Shown here piece by piece: positions 45,272 to 53,998 of a stretch of 64,000 bases of DNA. The position numbers and the translations under genes are program-made. Where the stretch lies: contig JAKSIJ010000002.1 in assembly GCA_024398875.1 (NCBI GenBank), forward strand, positions 1 to 64,000. The letters are read 5' to 3'. The notes below the pieces were generated by a model. That model was given only the letters and a program-made list of their open reading frames with translations. It was not told where the DNA came from and ran no database searches. Source of the stretch: Fibrobacter sp. (lineage in GTDB: Bacteria > Fibrobacterota > Fibrobacteria > Fibrobacterales > Fibrobacteraceae). How positions within the stretch are numbered: the stretch's first letter is position 1; every line of letters starts with the position of its first letter.

Positions 45272-45291
45272 GCCTTCGGCTTAATTATTAA

Positions 45292-45350
45292 TTATGAATT
45301 ATGAGATTGGAGATTACGAATATGTCGCCTTGTCGTCTCGTAATTCATAA
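45292..45350. repeat. Inverted AT-rich repeat between the DUF4912 and GH57 genes
   Basis: TTATGAATTATGAG (45292-45305) and CTCGTAATTCATAA (45337-45350) are inverted copies matching at 13 of 14 positions, with 31 bases between. No T run follows, so it is not a simple terminator. Confidence 0.7.
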
Positions 45351-45370
45351 CTTATAACTCATACTTATCT

Positions 45371-46984: not shown

Positions 46985-46996
46985 TGAGTGTTGTAC

Positions 46997-48436
46997 ATGG
47001 GTAGTTTAGAGACAGATAGCAAGTTCCTAAAAAAAGCTGTGATTGTGAACGTGGTTGGCACAATCCTCAAGATTTGTGGCCCTCTGCTTACATTTGTGAT
47101 GGCTCGCATTTTTGGGGCGGCGGAATTTGGCATGTTTGTCTCTGCTCAAACATTGCTTTTGACTATTGCTCGCTCTTCTACCTTAGGCCTTGACAAGGGC
47201 CTCTATTGGTACCTTCCGCAGAATAAGCTGAATAATCGTGCTCCCCATGATGGCATTATGGAATCCTTCTGGATTTCCATTGCTATTGCACTCTTCTGCA
47301 CGGCTGTGATATTTGTGGGCTCCTTTACGCCCTACATTTCGAAGGAATTGCCCTGGTATGGAATTTCCCTCATCTTCTTTGCCGGAACCTATGTCTTCAG
47401 CAATTCCTCGGAAGGAAATCGTCGTCCTCAAAATGCTGTATTCATCAATTCCTTCCTGGTGGTGACGCTTGCTCCAGCTACATCCATAGCGCTTTATTTC
47501 CTTCATGTTCCGCATGCGCTTCCGCTAGGCCTTCTTGTAGGGCAAGTGGTGGGCTTCTTTACCCATTTTGTCTTGGTCCGTCGGCAATTCCCAGAAATGC
47601 CGCTTATTCCTGGGAAGCTCGTCTCTAAGAAACTGCTGGTTTATTCGCTTCCCCTAGGGTTGGATGAATTTGTTTCCTCATTCTTGATTCGTTCTAGCCT
47701 TTGGCTGGTCATGCTTTTCCTCGGTCCCGAGAAAGCGGGTGCCTATGGTATCATGGTCACTATCTCGAATGCGCTTCAGACCATCCGGGTGGGCTTCAAC
47801 CCCATTCTTACGCCTGTTGTTGCTGGCATGGAAAGAGGGCGCCTGAAGGCGGACCTCCGACCCGTTTATAGCTATTGCGTTTTCATGGTGACATTGATTC
47901 AACTACTCATCGGGTTCTTTATCGTTCTCTTCCCAGAACAGATTCTGAACATTGCGGGGAAGGACTTCATTGTTCAGCCAGAAACCTTGGGAATACTTCT
48001 TTTGGTTCATTTGGTGGCGGGCTTTGGCGGAATGTCTTATGTTGTTCTGAATGGCCTCGGGAAAAGCCTTTTCTCTATGATTGTGGATATTCTGTCTTTG
48101 ATGGTGGCTCTTGCAACGGGTTATTTCCTCATTCCTGCCTATGGTCTTGTGGGAGCAGCTCTTTCCATGCTGTGCTATAACATCTTTGCCATCGTTCTCA
48201 ACAATGGCTACCTGATTAAGATGGGGTTGTGGCCTTATTCCTCAAAATTGATTTCCCAAGTGGTTTGGATTTTGATACTCATCGCCTTCTATATCATGCT
48301 CAACATGCAAGTGTTTACCTTGACGCTGTTGGAGAAGGTTTTTGTCTATGTAGGGGTTCTTGCAGTTTTAGGAATTTACTGGAAGATTATGAAAAAACGC
48401 ATTGAGGCGGATAGAAACGCTCATGCAAAAAATTAA
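46997..48436 (+). CDS. Polysaccharide flippase (Wzx/MOP superfamily)
   Basis: 479-aa membrane protein with about 12-14 hydrophobic segments, of the oligosaccharide/MATE superfamily that flips lipid-linked glycans. The opening ILKICGPLLTFVMARIFGAAEFG is typical. The ATG at 46997 is preferred over GTG 46988. It overlaps the LicD gene by 14 bases. It heads the surface-glycan gene run. Confidence 0.88.
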   Translation: MGSLETDSKFLKKAVIVNVVGTILKICGPLLTFVMARIFGAAEFGMFVSAQTLLLTIARSSTLGLDKGLYWYLPQNKLNNRAPHDGIMESFWISIAIALFCTAVIFVGSFTPYISKELPWYGISLIFFAGTYVFSNSSEGNRRPQNAVFINSFLVVTLAPATSIALYFLHVPHALPLGLLVGQVVGFFTHFVLVRRQFPEMPLIPGKLVSKKLLVYSLPLGLDEFVSSFLIRSSLWLVMLFLGPEKAGAYGIMVTISNALQTIRVGFNPILTPVVAGMERGRLKADLRPVYSYCVFMVTLIQLLIGFFIVLFPEQILNIAGKDFIVQPETLGILLLVHLVAGFGGMSYVVLNGLGKSLFSMIVDILSLMVALATGYFLIPAYGLVGAALSMLCYNIFAIVLNNGYLIKMGLWPYSSKLISQVVWILILIAFYIMLNMQVFTLTLLEKVFVYVGVLAVLGIYWKIMKKRIEADRNAHAKN

Positions 48437-49268
48437 TGTGGATTTAGAGATGAAAAAGATTGAACAGGATGAATGCCGTGAAATTCAGATGTCTGTTTTG
48501 GATGAGATTTCGCGTATTTGCAAAGAAAACAATCTGAAGTATAGTCTGGCTTACGGAACTATGCTTGGGGCAGTGCGCCACAAAGGCTATATTCCTTGGG
48601 ATGATGATATCGATATCTGGCTTTTCCGCGAGGATTACGATAAACTCCTGAAACTTTTGAAAGATCCGAACGTTCCTAAGAAGGAATGGCTTGGCCTTAT
48701 TGACGATACCAGCAAGGATTTCCATTGTCCTTTTGTAAAGGTACACGACAATCGTACAACTGTGAAAATGGAACGCCATGTAGGTGAAATGGGTTTGTGG
48801 GTGGATATTTTCCCAATGGATGGTATTCCGGAATCTAAAATTCTCGCAAAGGCATACGTGTATTTCATGGGCTTCCTGCGTATTTTCAGCTTGGCCATGA
48901 GTACGGATTTTAAATCCAAAGGTTATGACCGCTGGACTCTTTTCTACAAGCGCTTCTTCTATGCGTTTACTCTTCTTGTAGGCAAAAAACGCTTTTGCCG
49001 TTTTGTGGACTGGATGGCTTGTCGCTTTCCTGCTGCACAGTCGAAGTTTGTGGCGAATCCCTTTTTTGATACCAAAACAGACCGCATATTGGAACGTGAA
49101 AAAATCAGCGAGATGGTCCCGTATCCTTTTGAAAATCGGGAATATCTAGGGGTCAAGAATTACGATTACTATCTGTCGCAATTCTACCGCGATTATATGC
49201 AGCTCCCGCCAGAGGAAAAACGCTATAATCACGGCTTGGATGTCTGGTGGAAGCAGGAAACCAAGTAA
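48423..49268 (+). CDS. LicD-family phosphotransferase
   Basis: 281 aa (ATG 48423; an ATG at 48450 is also possible). LicD enzymes move phosphocholine or similar phospho-alcohols from CDP forms to cell-surface glycans. The family motif is complete: YSLAYGTMLGAVRHKGYIPWDDDIDIW. A nucleotidyltransferase-fold Asp pair lies within it. The cytidylyltransferase 1.2 kb downstream could supply its donor. Confidence 0.9.
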   Translation: MQKINVDLEMKKIEQDECREIQMSVLDEISRICKENNLKYSLAYGTMLGAVRHKGYIPWDDDIDIWLFREDYDKLLKLLKDPNVPKKEWLGLIDDTSKDFHCPFVKVHDNRTTVKMERHVGEMGLWVDIFPMDGIPESKILAKAYVYFMGFLRIFSLAMSTDFKSKGYDRWTLFYKRFFYAFTLLVGKKRFCRFVDWMACRFPAAQSKFVANPFFDTKTDRILEREKISEMVPYPFENREYLGVKNYDYYLSQFYRDYMQLPPEEKRYNHGLDVWWKQETK

Positions 49269-49433
49269 TTTCGGTACAGAAAAGTCATTTGTTCGCTCCA
49301 TGAGATATAATGGGGGGATGAATGGTCATATTGGGTGGATAGAGAGCCTATGCCTTCATTCTGGGCGGGGCTATAAAATCCTATATTTATAAAGAGAATT
49401 TTATGTGGGGTTACCCCTGCAAAAGGAATCGTC

Positions 49434-50465
49434 ATGAATTTTTTGGATAGAAACGAATTTAATTTCAAACCCTCCGCAAAGGTTCTTGATGCTATCAAGA
49501 ATTTTGACCCGGAACAGCTTTGCTTTTATACCCGCATTTATGATGAAGGCAAAAAGAGTATTTTTTCTGTAAAACTCAGTGAAATCTATAACGTGCCTGA
49601 AGAGCAGGTGCTGTTGGGATATGGTGGCGAAGATATCCTGAAAAATGCGGTGCACTACTATTTGATGAAGGGCGACAACAAGACCATCATGATTCCGGAA
49701 TTCTCTTGGTGGTACTACAATCGCATTGCCGGAGAATGCGGAGGCTCCTTTAAGATGTATCCGCTCTATGAAAAAGAGGATACCTTTGCCTACGATGTGG
49801 ACGAAGTCATTAAACTGACTAACGAAAATCATCCGCGGATGCTTCTTCTTGCATCTCCTAATAATCCGACGGGTAATAGCCTTACGCCGGAAGAAATCGG
49901 CCGCATCATGGAGAATATCCCGAACGATACAATGGTGCTGATTGATGAAGCCTACGCCTCCTTCATTACCACAGATACGGCTTATATCGCTCCACTGGTG
50001 AACAAGTATTCAAACCTCATTATCTCCCGTACCCTTTCCAAGTTCTTTGGACTTCCGGGTCTTCGTATGGGCTTTGGCTTTATGGGCAAGGGTCATGAGG
50101 CTTTCCTCAGCTATGCCAACAAATATCTGGGCTATAACCGTTTTAGTGAGGCGGTGGCCATGGCTGCTATTGATAGTGAAGACCACTACCGCAAGGTTGC
50201 CGATGATATGGAATGGGACCGCCAGCTCTTCAAGAAGGAGCTGGGCTCTCTTCCTGGATTCAAAGTTTACAAGAGTGTGGCGAACTTCATTCTCATCAAG
50301 TATCCCACTCGCATTAAGGAAGCTTTGCAGAAGGCTATGGCGGAACAGGATTACAAGATCAAGTTCATGAGCGATAAGGGCCTGGAAGACTGCCTCCGCA
50401 TTACGCTTGGGCGTAAGGAGCAAATTCAGGTTGTTGTTGACACCATCAAGCGTTGCGCTTTATGA
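49434..50465 (+). CDS. HisC/CobD-like PLP-dependent aminotransferase or decarboxylase
   Basis: 343-aa fold-type I PLP enzyme. GGEDILKN near residue 65, ASPNNPTGN at about 142, IDEAYASF near 170, the PLP Lys in RTLSKFFGLPGLRMGFG near 203, and a C-terminal RITLG complete the class I/II pattern. It resembles histidinol-phosphate aminotransferase and CobD (threonine-phosphate decarboxylase). No histidine genes are nearby, and it sits between licD-like and licC-like genes, so production of a phosphorylated amino alcohol is plausible. AAAGGAAT precedes the ATG. Confidence 0.85.
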   Translation: MNFLDRNEFNFKPSAKVLDAIKNFDPEQLCFYTRIYDEGKKSIFSVKLSEIYNVPEEQVLLGYGGEDILKNAVHYYLMKGDNKTIMIPEFSWWYYNRIAGECGGSFKMYPLYEKEDTFAYDVDEVIKLTNENHPRMLLLASPNNPTGNSLTPEEIGRIMENIPNDTMVLIDEAYASFITTDTAYIAPLVNKYSNLIISRTLSKFFGLPGLRMGFGFMGKGHEAFLSYANKYLGYNRFSEAVAMAAIDSEDHYRKVADDMEWDRQLFKKELGSLPGFKVYKSVANFILIKYPTRIKEALQKAMAEQDYKIKFMSDKGLEDCLRITLGRKEQIQVVVDTIKRCAL

Positions 50466-51190
50466 TAGCTGTAATTCTCGCCGCAGGAATGGCTTCCCGC
50501 CTTCGTCCTCTGACCAACAATACGCCGAAGTGCTTGCTGGATGTGAAGGGACGTTCGCTTTTGGAACGTTCGATGGATGCCCTCATTGGAAATGGCATTC
50601 ATGATTTCGTTATTGTGACGGGATACCTGCACCAGATGATTGAGGATTTTGTGGCGAAACGCTATGGAACAACAGTCCAGGTCAAGTTCATCCACAATGC
50701 CGTTTACGATAGCACTAATAACATCTATTCTTTGTGGTTGGCGAGGGAAGCTGTTGATGGTAAGTCCTTCCTGCTTTTGGACAGCGATTTGTTGTACGAC
50801 CCCCAGATTGCAAAGAATGTCCTCGCGGTACCTTCGAAGAACGTGCTCACGTTGATTCGCCATCCCCTTGGTGAAGAGGAGATGAAGGTGGTTGTCGATG
50901 CCGCCGGCGCCATTGTGGAAATCAGTAAAACCTGTTCTCCTACCGCCGCTGCTGGCGAAAGTCTGGGTATTGAAAAAATCGGTGAAGCCTACTCTACGGC
51001 CTTGTATAAGGAATTGGACAAGATGATGAATCAGGAACACTTGGAAAACAAGTTCTATGAGCTTGCCTTTGAGCGCCTGATTTCTCAAGGACATACTTAT
51101 ACGGTCTTGGACGCTACAGATTACTTCTCTTGCGAGCTGGATACCGTTGAAGATTTTGAGAATGCAAAGTCTACGATTCCGCTAGACTAG
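50462..51190 (+). CDS. LicC-like nucleotidyltransferase (probable CTP:phospho-amino-alcohol cytidylyltransferase)
   Basis: 242 aa from ATG 50462, overlapping the previous stop (ATGA). Rossmann-type nucleotidyltransferase: VILAAGMASRLRPLTNNTPKCLL is the LicC/sugar-NTP-transferase opening, and LLDSDLLYD supplies metal-binding Asps. It resembles CTP:phosphocholine and CTP:2-aminoethylphosphonate cytidylyltransferases. Substrate choice cannot be read from the sequence. Confidence 0.87.
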   Translation: MIAVILAAGMASRLRPLTNNTPKCLLDVKGRSLLERSMDALIGNGIHDFVIVTGYLHQMIEDFVAKRYGTTVQVKFIHNAVYDSTNNIYSLWLAREAVDGKSFLLLDSDLLYDPQIAKNVLAVPSKNVLTLIRHPLGEEEMKVVVDAAGAIVEISKTCSPTAAAGESLGIEKIGEAYSTALYKELDKMMNQEHLENKFYELAFERLISQGHTYTVLDATDYFSCELDTVEDFENAKSTIPLD

Positions 51191-51201
51191 GATTGTCGTT
51201 C

Positions 51202-52212
51202 ATGGTGAAGTATCTCTTTGTCCTGACTAGTTCTCCAAAGGATTTCTTTTGCGAACAGACCATTGTGGCTATCGCGTCTCTTCGAGTGCATAATCCACAC
51301 GCCTTTGTGACACTTTTGACGGATGATAAGACTGCTGCTACTCTGACGGGGAATCGTGCCGCGTTGAAGGATGCCGTGGACGAGTTGAAGGTTCTGGATT
51401 TGCCGGAGACACTTTCTCCCATGCTTCGTTCCCGCTACCTCAAGACGGTGATGCGTAACGTCATCGATGGCGATTTTCTCTATATGGATTCTGATATTGC
51501 TATCGTAGGCGATTTGAGCATCCCGGCAGAATGGACGGAAGATATTTACGCGGTCTTGGACTTCCATACCAAGCTCCACAAAGCCATCAATCGCAAAAAG
51601 ATTTTGAATAACGCCAAGATGCTCGGCTTCTCACCTATATTGAACGATGAAATCTTCAATGGGGGAGTGATGTATGCCAAGGATTCTCCTAAGGCTAGGG
51701 AATTCTTTAAGACCTGGCATGAACTTTGGCAGTATTGCGTCACCAAGAACTTCCCTTATGACATGGCAAGCCTTGCAGAAGCCAACTTCAAGTTTGGTTA
51801 CATGACGCAAAAGGCCGGCGGCGAATGGAACTGCCAGATGGCTTATGCCAAGAAGTTCATTCCCAATGGTAAGGTGTTCCATTTCTTTGGCTCTCGCATC
51901 ATCGATACCTGCGGGCGCAAGGTGCCCGAGAGCATGAACATCTTCCTCCCGAAGATTCTGCGGAGGGATTTCTACACGAATCTGAAGAACATCCCTGTAA
52001 TTGTGAATGCGGACAAGAGCATCACGATTAACGCATACTATGATGATGTGATTGCCCATGCCAAAGATGCATTCTTGTATCAGACAAAACATGCGGGAAC
52101 CTTTGGTGCGGACATCATCCGCTCCTATGCTTTTGCAAAGTCCCTTGGCTTTGTCTATAAGAAATTGCCGTTCGTACTTCCGCTGTTATCGCTAATCGGA
52201 AAAATCCTGTAG
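51202..52212 (+). CDS. Glycosyltransferase (GT8-like, DxD type)
   Basis: 336 aa, cytoplasmic face. FVTLLTDD near residue 35 and the metal-binding GDFLYMDSDIAIVGDLS near 92-108 fit GT-A transferases such as family 8. NDEIFNGGVMYAKDS near 148 is an acceptor-side loop typical of this group. It is in the same run as the LicC-like gene (11-base gap). Confidence 0.82.
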   Translation: MVKYLFVLTSSPKDFFCEQTIVAIASLRVHNPHAFVTLLTDDKTAATLTGNRAALKDAVDELKVLDLPETLSPMLRSRYLKTVMRNVIDGDFLYMDSDIAIVGDLSIPAEWTEDIYAVLDFHTKLHKAINRKKILNNAKMLGFSPILNDEIFNGGVMYAKDSPKAREFFKTWHELWQYCVTKNFPYDMASLAEANFKFGYMTQKAGGEWNCQMAYAKKFIPNGKVFHFFGSRIIDTCGRKVPESMNIFLPKILRRDFYTNLKNIPVIVNADKSITINAYYDDVIAHAKDAFLYQTKHAGTFGADIIRSYAFAKSLGFVYKKLPFVLPLLSLIGKIL

Positions 52213-52222
52213 AGGTTGCGCG

Positions 52223-53383
52223 ATGAGTTTGCTTTTCAATCTTACAGCAGTGCAGCCTATTCATAGCGCCAAATTCCATGGGGGAGGCTCCTATGGAGAG
52301 GTGATTTTCTGGGCGATGGTAAAGCGCGGTGAAAAGTTCAGTTGTGTTTACGATAGCCGAAAGTATTTGGACCCGAAAATCATAGATGTCTGCAAGGGAA
52401 AAAATATTCCTCTGTTTGACATAGCCGTGCAGACTCCGCAAGAAATTATCGATGCCAATAAGATTGACACTTTCTATACGCCGCTTTATTCGCTAGAGAA
52501 GAAGTGGAATATCAAGGTAAAGCGGTTTGTACTCACTTGGCACGGCGCCCGTGCTCTTGAAATGCAATACAGTCCTTTGGGAATCTCTTTTGCGAAAAAG
52601 TTCTCCCAGAAGGCGGAGGCTTTGGTCCGTTATCGGGAATCTTGGAAGCGACTTTACTACAAGCCCAAATATCAGGAATTGGCTAGCCGCATTGCTGATG
52701 GTCGGGCGGAAACCATTACTGTAAGTGAACACAGCCGCGCTAGTATTAAAAGCTTTTTCCCGGAACTGATGGATAAGGAAATTCCCGTATTCTACAGCCC
52801 TATGATTGAATACGAACCGGAGGGATTCCTTCCTCCGGAAGTTCAAACAAAGAAGTATTTTCTGCTTACAAGTGGCGCTCGCTGGGAAAAGAACAACTTG
52901 CGTGCCGCCAAGGCTTTCGATGAACTGGTGACTCAGTATGAGACCTGCGGAAAGCCTTTTGATTTCAAGATGATCATTACAGGTGCCGCCAATCCCAAGG
53001 TGTACTTGAAGAACGTTCGCCATAGGGACCGCTTTGTGCTTCTGGGCTATGTGGAAAACAAGGAACTGGAATTCCTGCACAAGAATGCATACGCCTTTGT
53101 TTTCCCGTCGCTAAATGAAGGCTTTGGTTACCCACCGATGCAGAGCATGCGCTATGGCGTTCCTGTTGCCGCTAGCGGAACAACATCTGTTCCTGAAATT
53201 TGCGAAAATGCAGCATTGCTTTTTGACCCGTATTCCGTAAGCGAAATCAAGAATCGCATGATTCAGCTTTTGGATTCAGCAATTTATGAATTGTACGCAG
53301 GCCGTGCAAAGGTTCGCTATGCAGAGGTCAGCAAGCGTCAAAAAGAAGACTTGGGAAAGGCTGTGGAGTTTATCCTGGACTGA
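52223..53383 (+). CDS. Glycosyltransferase family 4
   Basis: 386 aa, GT-B fold. The C-terminal donor site is clear: VFPSLNEGFGYPPMQSMRYGVPVAASGTTSVPEI (the Glu-x7-Glu type region). AGAGG precedes the ATG. The tail of this gene overlaps the tail of the invertase gene by 46 bases in opposite orientation. It is the last plus-strand gene of the glycan run. Confidence 0.9.
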   Translation: MSLLFNLTAVQPIHSAKFHGGGSYGEVIFWAMVKRGEKFSCVYDSRKYLDPKIIDVCKGKNIPLFDIAVQTPQEIIDANKIDTFYTPLYSLEKKWNIKVKRFVLTWHGARALEMQYSPLGISFAKKFSQKAEALVRYRESWKRLYYKPKYQELASRIADGRAETITVSEHSRASIKSFFPELMDKEIPVFYSPMIEYEPEGFLPPEVQTKKYFLLTSGARWEKNNLRAAKAFDELVTQYETCGKPFDFKMIITGAANPKVYLKNVRHRDRFVLLGYVENKELEFLHKNAYAFVFPSLNEGFGYPPMQSMRYGVPVAASGTTSVPEICENAALLFDPYSVSEIKNRMIQLLDSAIYELYAGRAKVRYAEVSKRQKEDLGKAVEFILD

Positions 53384-53979
53384 TTCGTGATTTTTAAAAA
53401 TCTATTAAGGGTCCCACGGTCTACATGGCAATGTTTTGCAATGTTCTTTTTGGGAATTCCGTTCTGAAGCATTTCCGTGATGACCTTAATCTTTGAATAG
53501 AGTTTGCATTTTTCTAAGGGTGTTTTTTTTCCTTTGGGTCTGCCTAGCACGGATCCAAGAGCTTTTTTTCGTGCTAAAGCTTCCTTTGTACGCTGGCTGA
53601 TGAGGTTTCTTTCTATTTCTGCAGAAAGCCCGAAAGCAAATGCAAGAACTTTGCTCTGTATGTCGTTTCCCAATCTGTAATTGTCCTTGATTGACCACAC
53701 ATGACATTCTTTTTGCATACAGATGTTTAGAATGTCCATTATCATAAAAAGATTTCTTCCTAGTCTGGAAATCTCGCTGCAAATAATGACGTCGTTACTC
53801 TGAACCTTTTTTAAAAGATTTCCAAGTTTTCTTTTGTCGTAATCTTTTGTTCCGCTTATTGTTTCCTCTATCCAATGATCGATATGGATATGTTCTCTAA
53901 TGCAAAATTGTGTTATTTCGAAGTGTTGGTTTTCTATTGTCTGCTTGTCACAACTGACACGTATATAACCGTAATACAT
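53338..53979 (-). CDS. Serine recombinase of the Mpi DNA-invertase type
   Basis: 213 aa. The resolvase/invertase catalytic domain opens with YYGYIRVSCDKQTIENQ (nucleophile Ser in IRVS); ICSEISRLGRNLFMIMDIL, IQSKVLAFAFGLSAEIERNL and a C-terminal helix-turn-helix (GIPKKNIAKHCHVDRGTLNRFL) follow. This closely matches the master invertase Mpi of Bacteroides, which inverts promoters of surface-polysaccharide loci. The ATG at 53979 has AGAGG 7 bases upstream, better than the ATG at 53997. The last dozen or so residues are antisense to the glycosyltransferase end, as if the gene was joined there. Confidence 0.9.
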   Translation of the reverse strand: MYYGYIRVSCDKQTIENQHFEITQFCIREHIHIDHWIEETISGTKDYDKRKLGNLLKKVQSNDVIICSEISRLGRNLFMIMDILNICMQKECHVWSIKDNYRLGNDIQSKVLAFAFGLSAEIERNLISQRTKEALARKKALGSVLGRPKGKKTPLEKCKLYSKIKVITEMLQNGIPKKNIAKHCHVDRGTLNRFLKITNQSRINSTAFPKSSF

Positions 53980-53998
53980 AATGAACCTCTTGTTCATT
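53980..53998 (-). promoter_or_regulatory. Hairpin containing the invertase ribosome site
   Basis: AATGAAC, loop AAGAG, GTTCATT directly before the ATG at 53979 on the minus strand: a perfect 7-bp stem whose loop carries the AGAGG ribosome-binding sequence. It could also be a protein operator. Confidence 0.5.

Follow-up and report, generated by a model that had tools for sequence, protein, structure and literature searches.

Gene content of the locus

The window, by which we mean the whole 64,000-nucleotide (nt) contig stretch analyzed, comes from the 99.3% complete genome of a gut Fibrobacter sp., and carries three consecutive genes that are the subject of this analysis: a LicD-family phosphotransferase, a pyridoxal phosphate (PLP) enzyme and a LicC/PntC-like cytidylyltransferase. 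A first-pass annotation had placed these genes between a flippase and two glycosyltransferases and proposed that they form a self-contained phospho-amino-alcohol pathway. All three are present in the order, at the positions and on the strand that it gave. The LicD gene (48423-49268, +) encodes 281 amino acids (aa), passes its family cut-off (Pfam LicD PF04991, 7.5e-41, 141 bits), has the DDDxD motif (GTMLGAVRHKGYIPWDDDID) and is the single PF04991 match returned by a search of the genome; we propose that it performs the final transfer step. After a 165-nt gap comes the gene for PLP enzyme P0001 (49434-50465, +; 343 aa; Aminotran_1_2, 3.1e-42), a HisC relative in a distinct clade and the proposed maker of the phospho-amino-alcohol, followed by the gene for cytidylyltransferase P0003 (50462-51190, +; 242 aa), with D107 and E200 in the places that bind the amine in LicC and PntC. 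These last two genes share an ATGA overlap, which suggests that their translation is coupled.

The upstream neighbor of LicD is the flippase (Polysacc_synt/MatE-like; 46988-48436, +), and the two genes overlap by 14 nt. Downstream, the GT4 glycosyltransferase (52223-53383, +; Pfam Glycos_transf_1, 4.8e-18) bears out the earlier description of the flanks, as does the flippase, but the gene between it and the cytidylyltransferase (51202-52212, +) has only a sub-threshold GT8 match (E = 0.0058) and is at most a putative glycosyltransferase. Among the neighbors of the three genes, neither a choline kinase nor a choline transporter was found.

The pair is conserved and the end enzyme is exchangeable

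We compared 107 loci of the PLP enzyme and its relatives, some of them taken from whole genomes and reaching down to ~41% identity. A cytidylyltransferase gene lies ≤3.5 kilobases (kb) from the PLP gene in 95/107 loci, and a LicD or a cytidine diphosphate (CDP)-alcohol phosphotransferase is present in 96/107, with both kinds in two of them, so the neighborhood expected of the proposed CDP-amino-alcohol module is constant. Both of these transferase families use CDP-alcohols. All 13 Fibrobacter loci have LicD, as do 16 from Bacteroidota, while most of the others have the CDP-alcohol phosphotransferase. Because every one of the 13 Fibrobacter loci has the PLP enzyme, the cytidylyltransferase and LicD, and the pair recurs as counted above, the association of the three genes is not chance. 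The description of the pathway as self-contained fits the three genes of the window, but LicD is an exchangeable end step, replaced in most Bacteroidota relatives.

The triad of PLP enzyme, CDP-alcohol phosphotransferase and cytidylyltransferase is kept in distant Bacteroidota. At three such loci (L151-L153) it shares a same-strand gene run with two GNAT proteins and a serine palmitoyltransferase, which at L151 scores above the NCBIfam cut-off. The presence of serine palmitoyltransferase in the strand run points to a candidate sphingolipid head-group locus. The same clusters (L151:2969-14001, L152 and L153) also contain two CDP-alcohol phosphotransferases, two nucleotidyltransferases and an LPG synthase-like protein. 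One Bacteroidota locus of the LicD type, L147, also encodes a Kdo/WaaP-type lipopolysaccharide kinase. The CDP-alcohol phosphotransferases differ in motif: the Prevotellaceae type (L109:4663-5652, from the carrier Segatella baroniae B14, and 46 similar sequences) has GxxxDxxxG in place of GxxxDxxxD in 47/47, and the triad type has the full GxxxDxxxD motif in 21/21.

An invariant acidic pair in the cytidylyltransferase

Among solved structures, the cytidylyltransferase is best matched by LicC (1jyk, 2.3e-18) and next by PntC (6pd1, 6.5e-16). In PntC, Glu104 and Glu196 are placed at the amine of the substrate, and the LicC equivalents are Asp105 and Asp192 (PMC6697681). At these positions an acidic pair, Asp107 and Glu200 in the window, is invariant in 88/88 cytidylyltransferase sequences, although the computed LicC alignment is off by one residue at the first site, where the equivalence rests on PMC6697681 and the DxD motif. 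The inositol-type enzyme 4jd0 has Cys and Tyr in the two columns. At the molecular level, the acidic pair is the strongest indication that the enzyme (CYTIDYLYLTRANSFERASE) expects an amine and hence that the compound it activates is an amino-alcohol phosphate.

The PLP enzyme belongs to a separate clade

The window PLP enzyme is not a CobD, and it is not the HisC of this genome either. It scores 214 bits against the hisC model TIGR01141 (cut-off 276.55) and 117.7 bits against the CobD model TIGR01140 (cut-off 290.55). The first-pass annotation had held that its proposal would fall if this were the only HisC of the genome and complemented histidine auxotrophy; two other genes exceed the HisC cut-off, at 330 and 321 bits. 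No true CobD gene scored above the cut-off in 61 genomes of relatives.

In a tree with HisC, CobD, the fused proteins described below and SMUL_1544, a decarboxylase of serine phosphate, the PLP enzyme falls in a separate clade (support 100/100). By sequence similarity it is closer to HisC (8e-47) than to CobD (8e-17). The catalytic Lys, Asp and Asn, together with Arg335, are retained in 28/28 clade members, and HisC Arg322 is replaced by Lys (Lys310) in all 28 (Arg322 and Tyr20 follow E. coli HisC numbering). The N-terminal arm that bears Tyr20 in HisC is missing in 25/28, and the remaining three lack the Tyr. HisC-type features of the clade are a Tyr at the position of HisC Y187 and the RIT-x-G motif. 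We considered Tyr versus Phe at Y187 as a marker that separates transaminases from decarboxylases; it is right for most sequences and fails in one (L212), and we kept it as weak evidence. The predicted structure, which the first-pass annotation had suggested comparing with CobD and HisC, has HisC as its top match with CobD and SMUL_1544 close behind (AlphaFold model, mean predicted local distance difference test score 80), and at the level of this model the fold does not discriminate between the possible reactions.

A proposed CDP-amino-alcohol module

The genomes show how the genes are ordered, that the pair is conserved with an end enzyme that can be exchanged, that the cytidylyltransferase keeps its acidic pair, and that the PLP enzyme falls in a separate clade, its Fibrobacter copies nested in Prevotellaceae (see below). 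From these observations we infer each reaction of a proposed module. In the first step, the PLP enzyme would convert a central metabolite into a small phosphorylated amino-alcohol. The cytidylyltransferase would then use cytidine triphosphate to form the CDP-amino-alcohol, and LicD would move the phospho-amino-alcohol onto the glycan built and exported by the neighboring genes. In most Bacteroidota carriers, the module would supply a CDP-alcohol phosphotransferase that builds the head group of a lipid, which in some species may be ceramide. We consider it likely that the PLP enzyme and the cytidylyltransferase form such a two-step module feeding LicD or a CDP-alcohol phosphotransferase.

As to the amino-alcohol itself, we lean narrowly and tentatively toward serinol phosphate, made by transamination of dihydroxyacetone phosphate, because the PLP enzyme is nearer to HisC, lies outside the CobD clade, and has Tyr at Y187 and the RIT-x-G motif, and because its partner has Asp107 and not Glu. 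Serinol and ethanolamine phosphate are close to evenly balanced, with the sequences tilting slightly to a transaminase. Another amino-alcohol, such as aminopropanol phosphate, is a lesser possibility. There is precedent for both candidate reactions in the capsule locus of Campylobacter jejuni, where Cj1436 converts phosphoserine to ethanolamine phosphate and Cj1437 converts dihydroxyacetone phosphate to (S)-serinol phosphate (PMC11800397). Our literature search for a phosphoserine decarboxylase with LicD, or for CDP-serinol, returned nothing relevant outside Campylobacter.

Several points count against our interpretation. The branch of the PLP clade is very long (2.51), which makes HisC and CobD alike unsafe guides, and the loss of the arm together with the Arg322 to Lys310 change sets the substrate site apart from that of either enzyme. 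The Tyr marker is weak, since L212, an annotated CobD beside a cobyric acid synthase gene, also has Tyr. To our knowledge, the family has no described biochemistry or glycan chemistry, and we found no literature mentioning either CDP-serinol or a serinol-phosphate lipid. For the sphingolipid clusters, ethanolamine would be a better fit than serinol because ceramide phosphoethanolamine is a known lipid of Bacteroidota (PMC10191378).

The last point favors the reading of the first-pass annotation, which can be viewed as a special case of the module: phosphoserine is decarboxylated to phosphoethanolamine, activated as CDP-ethanolamine and transferred to a glycan by LicD. Cj1436 catalyzes the first reaction in a capsule locus, and the serine palmitoyltransferase genes noted above adjoin distant members of the family. 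Further support comes from other Fibrobacter, where a 604-608 aa protein (L121-L126) fuses a cytidylyltransferase with a CobD-like protein; at several of its loci, genes for LicD and a flippase are nearby. The PLP half of this fused protein groups with CobD and with SMUL_1544, a decarboxylase by its Protein Data Bank (PDB) title (support 100/99), and its cytidylyltransferase half has Glu/Glu, as PntC does. The window PLP enzyme, however, lies outside the CobD/SMUL_1544 clade and has HisC-type residues, and its cytidylyltransferase has Asp/Glu, the Asp107 side chain being smaller than the Glu found there in PntC and the fused CobD-type proteins. Phosphatidylserine decarboxylase is present in 49/49 genomes, carriers and non-carriers alike, so the family is not needed for phosphatidylethanolamine supply; replacement of that decarboxylase, which we also considered, is ruled out on the same grounds. 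The phosphoserine reading suits the fused form better than it suits the window's PLP gene, and for the window we hold it possible but doubtful. The fused protein is unrelated to the window pair and would mean that the same logic arose twice independently. Of the route first suggested, the combination of a PLP enzyme, CDP activation and LicD is supported by its genomic context, and the decarboxylation of phosphoserine is a possible first reaction.

A different possibility is that the cytidylyltransferase makes CDP-inositol, which has been proposed for the "alternative inositol lipid cluster", and that the PLP gene is a bystander. The neighborhoods in Prevotellaceae do resemble that cluster in the types of genes they contain, but it is the PLP gene that constantly accompanies the cytidylyltransferase, and the inositol-type 4jd0 lacks the invariant acidic pair; both points make this reading improbable. 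Still less probably, the PLP enzyme would be a surplus histidinol-phosphate aminotransferase whose position beside the cytidylyltransferase is a coincidence. HisC is its nearest characterized sequence and its best fold match, but against this stand a score below the hisC cut-off that two other genes pass, a clade of its own, a pair kept in 95/107 loci, and the missing arm and replaced Arg322. An aminoethylphosphonate route of the PntC type, in which phosphonoacetaldehyde would be transaminated and activated as CMP (cytidine monophosphate)-aminoethylphosphonate, was the alternative named at first and, despite a cytidylyltransferase that is PntC-like as well as LicC-like and shares PntC Glu196, is hardly credible given that no phosphoenolpyruvate (PEP) mutase was found over the cut-off in the 99% complete genome (the only family match is below it and reads as PanB) and that the partner fused to PntC is a class V aminotransferase (6pd1; PMC6697681) and not class I/II as here.

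Distribution and probable transfer

In a scan of a genome collection, the PLP protein was found in Fibrobacter at 92-100% identity; at 81-90%, it recurs in many genomes of Prevotellaceae and other Bacteroidales. A Fibrobacter metagenome-assembled genome from horse feces (L039) has a protein identical to that of the window. Eleven of the 37 genomes examined in the genus carry the gene, the rest having no more than HisC-like matches at ~28%. The Fibrobacter sequences form one group in the tree (support 87, which is not strong), nested within Prevotellaceae. Fibrobacter probably obtained the PLP gene from that family, and because of the nesting a single transfer would be the simplest reading. The pair as a whole seems to have been acquired from Prevotella-type bacteria, in which most of its relatives stand next to enzymes of lipid synthesis. 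The stretches fetched around the Bacteroidota PLP genes closest to the Fibrobacter copies (L051-L054, L056 and L057; 88-90% identity) contain no related cytidylyltransferase, and downstream of these genes lies a conserved gene run that by appearance may encode Rnf/Nqr-type electron transport.

Other features of the window include a Mpi-family serine recombinase directly downstream of the glycan genes (53338-53997, -; 320 bits against a cut-off of 272), which also occurs at the equivalent place in L041, L044 and L045. In Bacteroides, members of this family invert the promoters of capsule genes. A search near the recombinase gave no convincing invertible promoter, and a promoter scan gave sites no more frequent than chance. 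An imperfect 22-nt inverted repeat with a 29-nt spacer (45285-45357), just ahead of a GH57 gene (45371), is probably an intergenic hairpin.

Implications and comparison with known systems

Together, these results look like an undescribed way to decorate glycans and membrane lipids. The proposed module is well supported by its context, and within it a transaminase is slightly favored over phosphoserine chemistry. Our full hypothesis is that an undescribed PLP family makes serinol or ethanolamine phosphate, which a two-gene module activates with CDP for glycans (through LicD) or for phospho- or sphingolipids, in Bacteroidota and, by transfer, in Fibrobacter; taken whole, we would not be surprised to see it hold or fail. 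If true, small CDP-activated groups would have a third source beside Lic (choline) and Pnt (phosphonate), and there would be a testable candidate for amino-alcohol head-group synthesis in some Bacteroidota, including beside serine palmitoyltransferase. Some Prevotella clusters that resemble inositol-lipid clusters might then need rereading, and a surface-chemistry module would be moving between phyla in the herbivore gut.

The module seems to be a variant of Lic/Pnt logic with a wider reach, since it appears to feed lipids in Bacteroidota. It shares with the phosphocholine Lic pathway a LicC-like cytidylyltransferase and LicD, but where LicC has Asp105/Asp192 and adjacent choline supply genes, the window has Glu200 for Asp192 and a PLP enzyme in place of an adjacent choline kinase or transporter. 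As in the Pnt pathway, a cytidylyltransferase with Glu at the Glu196 position is paired with a PLP enzyme; PntC, however, goes with PEP mutase and Glu104/Glu196, whereas the genome yielded no such mutase and the window has another PLP class and Asp107 for Glu104. SMUL_1544 (6oux) and CobD, whose substrate is L-threonine-O-3-phosphate (PDB title), share the fold of the window PLP enzyme, which lies outside their clade, while the fused proteins of other Fibrobacter lie inside it. Cj1436 and Cj1437, compared here by their reported reactions, are likewise PLP enzymes of a surface-glycan locus making ethanolamine or (S)-serinol phosphate (PMC11800397), but the Campylobacter group is amide-joined to glucuronate by an ATP-dependent enzyme, with no CDP activation or LicD. 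Finally, the alternative inositol lipid cluster of Bacteroides and Prevotella, for which CDP-inositol was proposed (Heaver et al. 2022, PMC9246714), has the same combination of an NTP (nucleoside triphosphate) transferase, a CDP-alcohol phosphotransferase and an LPG synthase-like protein; what sets the present loci apart is a constant PLP partner and an acidic pair at the amine-binding positions.

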